Shown piece after piece: positions 3,238 through 44,584 of a DNA stretch of 44,907 nucleotides. How positions within the stretch are numbered: position 1 is the stretch's first letter; each line of letters opens with the position of its first letter. A program made the translations under genes and the position numbers. The DNA is from Candidatus Saccharimonadota bacterium (GTDB taxonomy: Bacteria > Patescibacteriota > Saccharimonadia > Saccharimonadales > UBA4665). The stretch is taken from contig JACMNI010000026.1 in assembly GCA_014378615.1 (NCBI GenBank), positions 1-44,907 of the forward strand, read 5' to 3'. Below the pieces are notes generated by a model that saw only the letters and a program-made list of their open reading frames with translations, made no database searches and was not told the origin of the DNA.

Positions 3238-3606
3238 ATGTATCAGGAAGATCTTAGTACTCTGGCCAGCAGTGGAAATGTTGCCGTCCACGGTGGATTT
3301 CCAAACCCTGCCGTCGACAGAATGGGGCAGGGCAACAAATTAGCGCTTGATCTCAATGCGTCGCTTATAAAGCACCCTAGTAGCACCTATCTATTTCGTA
3401 TAACCGGACACGGCAACGACGCCGAGGGCATTTTTGACGGCGACCTGGCCCTCATCGATCGAAGCTTGCAACCACGGCCTAGCGACTTAGTGCTCGTGTG
3501 GCAGGCCGGCGGCTTTGTTTTGTGCCGCTACAGCCAAATGGATAGGCGCGATACATTTTGGGGAGTAGTCAGTAGCACCGTTCACGAACGTCGGCGACCG
3601 GCATGA
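3238..3606 (+). CDS. UmuD-like protein lacking the Ser/Lys catalytic dyad
   Basis: The 122 aa align with UmuD/LexA C-terminal (S24) domains: GGFPNPA corresponds to the CGFPSPA cleavage region, then LDLNASLIKHPSSTYLFRI and EGIFDGDLALIDRSL. The catalytic serine position (E. coli UmuD Ser60, GDSM) is Gly59 here (GHGN). The general-base lysine position (Lys97, EFTVKK) is Cys96 (GFVLCR). The cleavage dipeptide Cys-Gly is Gly-Gly, and the arm before it is only ~19 residues. The fold looks intact, so this probably acts as a constitutive, non-cleavable UmuD'-like partner of UmuC. Its stop overlaps the umuC start (ATGA), indicating translational coupling. Confidence 0.82.
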   Translation: MYQEDLSTLASSGNVAVHGGFPNPAVDRMGQGNKLALDLNASLIKHPSSTYLFRITGHGNDAEGIFDGDLALIDRSLQPRPSDLVLVWQAGGFVLCRYSQMDRRDTFWGVVSSTVHERRRPA

Positions 3607-4892
3607 AACAGCCGCTATTTGCGCTGATAGATTGTAATAATTTCTTCGTCAGTTGCGAGCGGGTATTCAGGCCAGACCTCGCTCACCGGCCCGTCGTAGT
3701 GCTATCTAGTAACGACGGCTGCGCCGTGGCTCGTTCTAAAGAGGCCAAAGCGCTAGGCATCCCCATGGGCGCACCCGCTTTTAAATACAAAGATCTTTTC
3801 AGACAACACGGCGTAGTGCAATTTTCTGCGAATTTCGAATTATATGGCGACATCAGCGATCGGATCAGCCGACTTTTGACGGAAATTACGCCCCATATAG
3901 AGCTGTACTCGGTCGACGAGTCATTCCTCGACTTACAAGAATTAGATATACCCAACTACACCGCCTGGGGGCAGACCGTGCGCCAGCGAATTATGCGCGA
4001 AATTGGTGTGCCCACTTCTATCGGTATAGCCACCTCAAAAACGCTCGCCAAACTAGCCACCGAACAAGTTAAAAGCCTGCCGCACCTTCGTGGCGCCCTA
4101 GACCTTATTACCGGCAGTGTCGAAGACCGAGCAAACTACCTGCGGGCTACGCCTGTCCGCGATATTTGGGGAGTCGGCGGTCGGCTGGCACCAAAGTTGA
4201 AAGCCGAAAGCGTCTTTACCGCCTTCGATCTAGCCGGCATGAGCCCACAAAGAGCCCAACAACTTATGGGTATCCACGGTCGGCAAATGGTGGAAGAACT
4301 GAAGGGTACTTGCTGCCTGCCACTAGAAAAAATGACCAAGGTGCGCCAAACGGTGATGCACGGGCGGCAATTCGGAGAAGACACTAATGATATGCGGGTA
4401 TTAGAGGCTGCCGTCGCCAGCCTTACGGCCAAGGCCGCACTGCGACTGCGCTCGAGTGCACTACTAGCTCGCGGCGCTTGTATTACTATCAGCACTAATC
4501 GACTTAAGCCTGGTTACCAGCGAGTTAATCGCTACCTTACGTTTATGACGCCTACTGCAGACACCGGCGTTATTACGCAGCAACTAATGACGGCGCTTGG
4601 GACAATGTACAACCCGCGAGCGCAGTACCACCGTGCCAATGTACTGCTATACAATCTACAGCCTGAGGATTCATTGCAGGCCGATCTATTTGGCGATGTT
4701 GACCTGGTAGCCAGCAGTCAGAGCCGTCACCGCATGCAGGCGCTAGATGCCATTAACAAGCGCTACGGCAATAACACAATTCGTTTCGCCGCCGAAGATC
4801 TGAGTCGCGCCTGGCAGCCCAAGCGTCTGCTCAGTAGCCCGCATTACACCACCCGGTGGGCAGATCTACCCAGCGCTCGGGTTTCACTGTAG
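3603..4892 (+). CDS. umuC: UmuC-type Y-family DNA polymerase
   Basis: At 429 aa it is close to E. coli UmuC (422). The N-terminal palm/fingers read FALIDCNNFFVSCERVFRPDL, with the metal-binding Asp and the cysteine typical of UmuC rather than DinB. The second metal motif is YSVDESFLDL (catalytic Asp-Glu). An HhH thumb (IWGVGGRLAPKL) and little-finger domain follow, with the UmuC C-terminal extension. It should perform error-prone bypass of DNA lesions. It is coupled by a 4-nt overlap to the UmuD-like gene, which is unusual in lacking protease residues. No LexA-type operator was recognised in the leader. Confidence 0.93.
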   Translation: MKQPLFALIDCNNFFVSCERVFRPDLAHRPVVVLSSNDGCAVARSKEAKALGIPMGAPAFKYKDLFRQHGVVQFSANFELYGDISDRISRLLTEITPHIELYSVDESFLDLQELDIPNYTAWGQTVRQRIMREIGVPTSIGIATSKTLAKLATEQVKSLPHLRGALDLITGSVEDRANYLRATPVRDIWGVGGRLAPKLKAESVFTAFDLAGMSPQRAQQLMGIHGRQMVEELKGTCCLPLEKMTKVRQTVMHGRQFGEDTNDMRVLEAAVASLTAKAALRLRSSALLARGACITISTNRLKPGYQRVNRYLTFMTPTADTGVITQQLMTALGTMYNPRAQYHRANVLLYNLQPEDSLQADLFGDVDLVASSQSRHRMQALDAINKRYGNNTIRFAAEDLSRAWQPKRLLSSPHYTTRWADLPSARVSL

Positions 4893-38422: not shown

Positions 38423-38980
38423 TTACACCATAGGCTTGTAGATTTTGAGTCGGTTCGTATATCCGGTTACGCGGTATGGCTTTAAGCGGTATGCCTGCAA
38501 TCGGCGAATCTCCCGAGTTAAGCAATACGTTAGTGGTAGGTAGACGCATATTACTAAACCAGTTGGCGAGCGCACTATACGGTTAGCGGTGCCAAGATGG
38601 GGTAAAACAGCAAACGTACGCCCGACAACTTGACTATCAGAAATGGCTGTATCGGCGGTGGGGTTGTGGTCGCCCTTAACGATTATTCGCTGAGGGCCAG
38701 TGTTGATGGCAATAATCCTATGGCTGATCAACGTCGTCTGCCCCACGGGTCGATAACTCACTATATCGCCGAGGGCTAAGCTCTTGGCGCTCACTGGCTG
38801 GACAACTACGGCATCGCCTACCTTCAATGAAGGCGACATACTGCCGGTTTGCACGCCCATTATCCTAATGTGGTGATGATGGATGGTCCAACTTATTAGC
38901 ACAAGTAAGGTGCTCAGGCCTAGCAATACCGAGATCGCTAGGCCCTGAAGAAACCAGAGGACTGATTTCTGAAGCCGCAT
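38423..38980 (-). CDS. SipW-type signal peptidase I
   Basis: The 185-aa protein has an N-terminal membrane helix (FLQGLAISVLLGLSTLLVLISW), the catalytic Ser in TGSMSPS, then LGDIVSYRP, and a His (LISHRIIAI) in place of the usual Lys general base. This marks the Ser/His (ER-type, SipW) signal peptidases. A second hydrophobic helix near residue 140 follows. It overlaps the stop of the TasA-like gene by one base, which is the classical SipW-substrate arrangement. Confidence 0.9.
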   Translation of the reverse strand: MRLQKSVLWFLQGLAISVLLGLSTLLVLISWTIHHHHIRIMGVQTGSMSPSLKVGDAVVVQPVSAKSLALGDIVSYRPVGQTTLISHRIIAINTGPQRIIVKGDHNPTADTAISDSQVVGRTFAVLPHLGTANRIVRSPTGLVICVYLPLTYCLTREIRRLQAYRLKPYRVTGYTNRLKIYKPMV

Positions 38981-39558
38981 TAGTTAACCGCATTACCCGT
39001 TACGGTGAAATCGATAGCGCCAATTGAAGCCGCTGGCCCGCTAAAAGCGTCGGTTGTCATAGAGACTTGCAATGTAAAGGGGTGTACTTGCTGCTGAAAC
39101 AAAACGGGTAGGATTGAAACTATGGCGCCGCCAGTAGCATTACTGTCGATGAGCGACTGCAATGAAAAGGTTTGGGCCTGGCCGCTAGCAGTCGACGTTA
39201 GCACGACACTAACCTTAGCCAGATCAACCCCGTCGGGATTAGTTGGCGTACTGCTGACTCCGAGTTTGATTGATAGTGGCGTACCGCCGGCATTCTTTAG
39301 ATATACAGGGTATCCTGGGCTGGGGGATAATGTACCACCAGGGATAACGTTCATGAAGGCTAGCCCAGACTGGGTATTTGAAAAGGTAGTGCCATCGCGG
39401 CTTACTACCAAATTTGCGGTAGCCGTCTGAATGGTGCTGCCGGTGAATTTTGATTGCCCTTGCAGCGCCGCGTAGGTTACGCCACTAAGTATTCCGAGAA
39501 GTAGCGCGATAAAGAGCGTTCCCCGAGCAATTGGATTAATAAATATTCGACGTTGCAT
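38980..39558 (-). CDS. TasA/camelysin-like secreted protein
   Basis: The 192-aa protein has a signal peptide (RGTLFIALLLGILSGVTYAALQGQS). A beta-rich domain follows with features of SipW-dependent TasA/camelysin proteins: TANLVVSRDGTTFSNTQSGLAF, VIPGGTLSPSPGYPVYLKNAGGTPLSIKLGV. TasA proteins form extracellular fibres. The immediately downstream SipW-type peptidase (1-nt overlap) supports the assignment. A Shine-Dalgarno (AAGGAG) precedes the ATG. In a Saccharibacterium this could be a surface fibre for attachment to a host bacterium (inference). Confidence 0.75.
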   Translation of the reverse strand: MQRRIFINPIARGTLFIALLLGILSGVTYAALQGQSKFTGSTIQTATANLVVSRDGTTFSNTQSGLAFMNVIPGGTLSPSPGYPVYLKNAGGTPLSIKLGVSSTPTNPDGVDLAKVSVVLTSTASGQAQTFSLQSLIDSNATGGAIVSILPVLFQQQVHPFTLQVSMTTDAFSGPAASIGAIDFTVTGNAVN

Positions 39559-39716
39559 ACTGACTCCTTAGTTAAGTAGTCGTAGCATGGCAGCGGCCAG
39601 AATCTAGGTCAAAAGTTTACTGCAGGAAGTTAATAATTGGGCTATGTCGGCATTTCCCCAGTGATTTAACTAATCTGTTAAGTAAGCGTTAGCGACGATT
39701 AGCAGCAGTTAAGATT

Positions 39717-43909: not shown

Positions 43910-44584
43910 ATGAAAAGATTATTATTAACCGCGGCCGCTGTTGTGTCGACGCTAATTTCTACTGGTGGTTTAGCCAGTGCGAGCGCACCTAATAAGCACC
44001 CGATTAAGAAAGCGGCAGCAATTACGGCGCCAGCTGAGCCGGCACCTAAAATGGTCAATGTCCAAGACGGCGACTATCTTAGCAAGATTGCCGACGAACA
44101 GAATACTACGTACTTACGTTTGTATTATGCTAATACAGCCATTGCCAACCCAGACCTGATATTCCCTGGTGATGCTGTCCGTGTTCCAGAACCAACCGAA
44201 ACTTTGGCTGCTCGTGAGTTGCCAGTTACGGCGCCAGTTGCTGTGCAAGAAAAAGTTGCAGCTGACCCGACGGTTGACACCCAGCCGGCAGCAGCAGTCG
44301 CGCCCCGCGCAACGCAGCGTCAAGCCGTTGCAGCCCCAGCAGTAGCTGGTGGTAGCGTTTGGGATAAGTTAGCAGCCTGCGAAAGCGGTGGCAACTGGGC
44401 TATAAACACCGGCAACGGTTTTTATGGTGGACTGCAGTTTACTACCTCTAGCTGGGCCGCCGTTGGTGGATCTGGATTACCAAGTAACGCCAGCCGCGAA
44501 GAGCAAATTGCTCGCGCAACCACATTGCAGTCTATGCAAGGATGGGGCGCCTGGCCCGCCTGTAGCGCAAAGCTCGGTTTATAG
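43910..44584 (+). CDS. Secreted LysM + Rpf-like transglycosylase
   Basis: The 224-aa protein has a signal peptide ([26 protein letters not shown]), one LysM peptidoglycan-binding domain ([46 protein letters not shown]) and a Pro/Ala/Val linker. The C-terminal domain is of the resuscitation-promoting-factor/lysozyme-like type ([39 protein letters not shown]...[16 protein letters not shown]) with the catalytic Glu in ACESGGNW and paired cysteines. Rpf domains are otherwise typical of Actinobacteria, the usual hosts of Saccharibacteria. It may remodel its own wall or act on the host wall (inference). Confidence 0.93.

Follow-up and report, generated by a model that had tools for sequence, protein, structure and literature searches.

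Can an ultrasmall episymbiont make a surface fibre with little more than a signal peptidase and its substrate? TasA is the fibre protein of Bacillus biofilms, and an earlier note on the DNA studied here had claimed that two adjoining genes of a Saccharibacterial genome repeat the Bacillus SipW-TasA unit. We followed these genes through 93 genomes of the same family and favour, with a probability of about 0.6, the reading that they form a minimal SipW-TasA-type module for secretion and donor-strand assembly of a surface fibre. If true, donor-strand matrix fibres would extend to the Saccharibacteria, where surface structures beyond type IV pili are scarcely known, and the subunit would come from a protein family missed by current models. 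In the literature that was searched, neither TasA nor SipW was reported from Saccharibacteria, while TasA homologues are already known from various bacterial and archaeal branches (PMC10151520).

The two-gene locus

The window, that is the whole stretch of 44,907 nucleotides that was analysed, belongs to genome G000, in which the locus lies on contig C5. Two open reading frames were found there on the minus strand, at 39558-38980 (192 aa) and 38980-38423 (185 aa). The first, TasA-like gene (38980-39558) encodes a secreted protein that was aligned with 27 relatives, and is preceded by a Shine-Dalgarno-like AAGGAG (39564-39569, minus strand) 5 bases before its first ATG. The second (38423-38980) encodes an ER-type (SipW/Sec11-like) signal peptidase I. 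At the junction GCGGTTAACTAATGCGG the TAA stop and the ATG start share one A, and this TAATG (38978-38982, minus strand) is the one-base overlap of peptidase start and TasA-like stop that had been read earlier. The exact overlap is shared with the nearest relative (L004) only; since spacing elsewhere ranges from -4 to about +40 bp, it is not a family trait. A PIF1-HRDC helicase gene lies upstream of the pair and an NYN-domain gene downstream, and a scan for promoters and terminators gave no more signals than shuffled sequence. Most of the relatives of the locus that bear a name are MAGs listed as Candidatus Saccharibacteria; a cultured carrier of the TasA-like gene was not identified.

Elsewhere in the window, a UmuD-like S24 protein and a Y-family DNA polymerase are encoded at 3238-4892 (plus strand), where the start of the second gene overlaps the stop of the first as a UmuDC-type pair. 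The translation of 43910-44584 (plus strand), read by eye, is a secreted protein that has a LysM-like segment and, at its C-terminus, a transglycosylase/Rpf-like stretch.

The signal peptidase

The description of the second gene product as a SipW-type (ER-type) Ser/His peptidase holds. It passes the ER-type/archaeal signal peptidase I model TIGR02228 (75.7 bits against a cut-off of 51.85, E 3.6e-21), exceeds the cut-off of PF10502 and matches human SEC11A/C in a PDB search. Ser47 (codon at 38840-38842, minus strand), His87 (38720-38722, minus strand), Asp104 and Asp110 are invariant across 19 aligned relatives, giving Ser-His(-Asp) in place of Ser-Lys; the two Asp residues lie in KGDHNPTAD, and the stretch from one to the other (38651-38671, minus strand) is the region of the acidic catalytic residue. 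Against the Bacillus SipW equivalog NF046067 the protein scores 44.9 bits, far below the cut-off of 190, and judged by sequence it is SipW-like and not a SipW equivalog.

The same genome has a separate LepB (contig C29, E 8.7e-35). Since LepB is also over cut-off in 85 of the 93 same-family genomes, and the ER-type enzyme is present in only 35, the latter is accessory and not housekeeping.

Two further peptidase-like proteins of G000 were observed. One on contig C31 (L035:1444-1998, plus strand) is LepB-like, with GPAMEPTI and LLHRIIALPGE, but Ala stands in place of the catalytic Ser and His in place of the Lys, which makes it a possible inactive signal peptidase. On contig C25 (L034:1411-2086, minus strand) a Ni-superoxide-dismutase-like gene with the HCDLPCG hook overlaps that of a 107-aa Ser/Lys peptidase resembling the NiSOD maturation protease.

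Linkage of the two genes in relatives

The TasA-like gene is patchy within the family: a single-sequence search found the protein in 28 of the 93 genomes, and a profile added four (32/93). It co-occurs with the ER-type peptidase (Fisher p 1.7e-5 with the single-sequence search and 1.0e-7 with the profile hits, 93 genomes), and in all 24 genomes holding both the genes are adjacent, with 18-370 bp between matches. The coupling of the peptidase to its neighbour that had been proposed thus extends to relatives, among which no unlinked pair occurred. Adjacency without exception, although nearly all genomes carry an ordinary LepB, argues for a dedicated peptidase-substrate pair, in which the peptidase most likely trims the signal peptide of the adjacent TasA-like protein. 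That the enzyme is instead the housekeeping signal peptidase and its neighbour incidental is hardly credible: membership of the type I signal peptidase superfamily would fit, but the LepB survey and the constant adjacency refute this reading unless LepB is non-functional.

Eight genomes (G008, G015, G025, G069, G070, G078, G086 and G091) hold the TasA-like protein and no ER-type peptidase. At the seven orphan loci inspected the gene usually keeps the same neighbourhood, beside the PIF1 helicase gene, the NYN gene or both. Because peptidase absence is clustered on the family tree, where about two changes are needed, the orphans seem to reflect secondary losses (or a late gain) rather than noise; their TasA-like proteins apparently manage without the ER-type peptidase. 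In G086 (L027, L031 and L032) the TasA-like gene is fragmented over two frames at contig ends, and the ER-type peptidase was not found in a genome that is 97% complete; either decay or an assembly break may account for the fragments.

Signal peptide and mature N-terminus

The TasA-like protein begins with a classical signal peptide (residues 1-30; 39469-39558, minus strand), whose most hydrophobic 19-mer is residues 14-32 and whose predicted cleavage point is VTYA|ALQ. Ala30 is invariant in the family alignment, P2 is aromatic (Tyr or Phe) in 27 of 27 relatives and P2' is usually Leu. In Bacillus, TasA resists LepB largely owing to Trp at P2 (PMC10269814). The aromatic P2 agrees with a dedicated peptidase, although the orphan members keep it as well. 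The SipW-dependent-type signal peptide model TIGR04088 matches only one of 27 members (E 0.033), and the hhalign alignment to camelysins described below spans the signal peptide region.

The mature N-terminal segment ALQGQSKFTGSTIQT (39424-39468, minus strand) is among the most conserved regions of the family and flexible in the structural model. By comparison with TasA it is a candidate donor strand; in TasA the donor strand comprises residues 28-38, and F29, I32 and F39 make hydrophobic contacts (PMC9674648).

The position of the cleavage site also bears on whether the secreted protein could be a type IV pilin or archaellin-like. PF01917 does match three of 27 members (best E 0.0086), but VTYA|AL comes after the hydrophobic stretch and not before it, a prepilin motif is lacking, and in place of PilD the partner is a type I peptidase of the ER type. 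We regard this reading as extremely improbable, and reject it on the cleavage site position.

Relationship to TasA and camelysin

The earlier note called the secreted protein TasA/camelysin-like, a description that stands by way of intermediates and fails in direct comparison. The camelysin model PF12389 found none of the 93 same-family genomes at E 0.001. Scans of all 27 members with Pfam and NCBIfam gave scattered weak matches only, PF12389 being reached by one member (E 0.013), and the family profile matched no sequence in the PDB; plastocyanin matches of the single protein (E 0.14) were dismissed as chance. Direct profile comparison of the family with TasA was not significant.

Across the phylum, PF12389 finds camelysins in 50 of 380 genomes of Patescibacteria, and 25 of 30 camelysin loci that were read also hold an ER-type peptidase. 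The profile of the Saccharibacterial family aligns with these camelysins at E 5.7e-12 (hhalign), and with signal peptides removed at E 3.7e-7 over 133 columns (reversed control probability 0.5%). B. subtilis TasA, in a sequence identical to PDB 8AUR/5OF1, aligns in turn with these camelysins at E 3.7e-14, or 1e-7 for the mature parts alone. As the chain runs through the Patescibacterial camelysins while curated models and the direct TasA comparison fail, we place the family in the wider TasA/camelysin superfamily, as a divergent relative outside PF12389; the profile alignments point to a relationship that is real but indirect.

Relatives of genera g24 and g20 (L084-L088, L090 and L092) carry a different secreted protein beside another group of ER-type peptidases. 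It starts like LRRIIYAGGILGILSLVFVQSGSFASFTATANVxSKIxSGNFSL and is apparently a further TasA-type substrate family.

Predicted fold

The AlphaFold model of the mature window protein is a beta-sandwich (mean pLDDT 83.5) in which the first 16 residues have low confidence. In Foldseek its first match is self-complemented FimA (E 3.6e-4, TM 0.53), followed by CS20 pilin, the Pyrobaculum bundling pilin and the Sulfolobus thread, the last two at E about 0.01 and TM-scores of 0.32-0.39. All four are donor-strand subunits; FimA-type pili, the Sulfolobus thread and the bundling pilin are known as donor-strand filaments (PMC9674648, PMC9715654, PMC11952670). A TasA-related archaeal pilin is present among the first 50 matches; TasA entries are absent from the first 50 for this model and for that of a second family member. 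The second member, 38% identical and also confidently modelled (mean pLDDT 86.6), gave no match at E 0.001 or better, with the bundling pilin at rank 37. Structure prediction thus gave a donor-strand resemblance for the window protein, and the second member did not reproduce it at significance, for which reason the fold can only suggest a donor-strand fibre subunit.

This discrepancy leaves room for another reading, in which the peptidase-substrate unit is real but its substrate, a secreted beta-sandwich such as a ligand-binding or other surface protein, does not polymerise. Carbohydrate-binding and other jelly-roll domains come first in the fold list of the second member, though without significance, and many camelysins have no known function. 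We nevertheless think this rather unlikely, given the four donor-strand subunits that head the list of the window protein and a mature N-terminus conserved as a donor strand would be. We take a fibre subunit to be the likely role of the TasA-like protein.

A proposed secretion and fibre module

In the favoured reading of a SipW-TasA-type module, the TasA-like precursor would be exported by Sec and the membrane-bound ER-type peptidase translated from the overlapping start. The peptidase would cut the 30-residue signal peptide and free the N-terminus ALQGQSKFTGSTIQTATANL, and mature beta-sandwich subunits would polymerise at the cell surface in the manner of TasA, each donating its N-terminal strand to the one that follows. 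Cleavage by the adjacent peptidase, strand donation, fibre formation and surface location are all steps that we infer. The module is favoured because the genes adjoin in 24 of 24 genomes beside a separate LepB, because the Ser, His and Asp residues are invariant, and because a profile chain leads through camelysins to TasA. Camelysins that lie beside ER-type peptidases elsewhere, the pilin-led fold list, the flexible N-terminus and the aromatic P2 in 27 of 27 relatives argue in the same direction. Counting against it are the failure of curated models, the non-significant direct comparison with TasA, the fold of the second member, the absence of TasA from the top 50, the eight peptidase-less genomes and the lack of an adjacent TapA-like nucleator.

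It had also been suggested that such a fibre might attach the episymbiont to its host cell. Studied Saccharibacteria are indeed episymbionts, and they bind their hosts with filaments of another kind, type IV pili (PMC12206443). However, type IV pili already fill this role in studied strains, the TasA-like gene is patchy within the family, and a cell-cell matrix or self-aggregation is equally possible; a fibre whose role is host attachment therefore seems quite unlikely to us.

Peptidase tails in relatives

Several relatives have an ER-type peptidase that possesses a third membrane helix and, beyond it, a second TasA-type cleavage/N-terminal-strand segment (L082:1216-1962, L083:1213-1962, L029:478-1167, L026:2116-3069, L134:582-1463, L137:1827-3518, L138:2417-4483 and L139:687-1490). 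Some of these proteins stop after the segment and others run into a lamin-tail domain; the window peptidase is without the third-helix tail. In G059 the partner reads SYFNKSVSLTGITFSSGSVDL and the tail SSLMSSSVSLTNVTISSGTYDVDNDN, where the protein ends; in G077 they read ALNTQATLTDNTISTATVGL and ALSSQATLTGNTISSA; in G185 the partner reads AYFSDTVTSNDNSFSTG and the tail AYFSDTETSTGNIFQAA, which is followed by the lamin-tail domain. Tails are closer to their own partner than to other partners; permutation gave p 5e-5 (9 deduplicated pairs) and p 0.005 (7 Saccharibacterial pairs), though the comparison is confounded by shared ancestry.

One may speculate that the Patescibacterial SipW-type peptidase doubles as membrane anchor and nucleator of the fibre, the tail being a built-in donor strand and the window pair the simplest form of the arrangement, which we consider unlikely. 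Such a tail would do the job of the short N-terminus of Bacillus TapA. Alternatively, the tail may simply be a substrate in cis. The dedicated peptidase, the N-terminal strand and the peptidase tails are features through which one may ask how ultrasmall episymbionts build fibres without chaperone, usher or TapA.

Comparison with known systems

The two archaeal pilins in third and fourth place of the fold list (Pyrobaculum bundling pilin, Sulfolobus thread) resemble the proposed module as donor-strand filaments of exported subunits, and differ from it in their low TM-scores and weak E-values and in the lack of a sequence match.

With B. subtilis tapA-sipW-tasA the pair shares an adjacent ER-type peptidase and secreted beta-sandwich substrate (the window substrate by predicted fold), a signal peptide with aromatic P2, an N-terminal segment followed by PG(G/D) and an N-x-G pattern, and homology through the Patescibacterial camelysins. 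The claim that the Bacillus unit is repeated is thus upheld for the linked peptidase and substrate genes (24/24) and not for their arrangement: the order is reversed, with the TasA-like gene before that of the peptidase, and a TapA-like nucleator was not found beside the pair, where the neighbours are the helicase and NYN-domain genes. Nor is TapA found throughout Bacillus itself (PMC10151520). Compared with B. subtilis TasA the window protein is also shorter, divergent and unrecognised by PF12389, and its family usually has Leu instead of Phe at P2'. B. cereus sipW-tasA/calY likewise combines substrate and peptidase without TapA (PMC13082335, PMC10151520), but with sipW first and with two camelysins and the accessory CapP, none of which was seen at the window locus.

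The canonical Patescibacterial camelysins (PF12389) carry AYFSDTETSxGNTFxAGTLDL, whereas the Saccharibacterial family, which falls below the Pfam model, carries AALQSQxxxLTGNTIQTATANL. They belong to the same phylum, show the same two-gene association and match the Saccharibacterial family by profile at E 5.7e-12.
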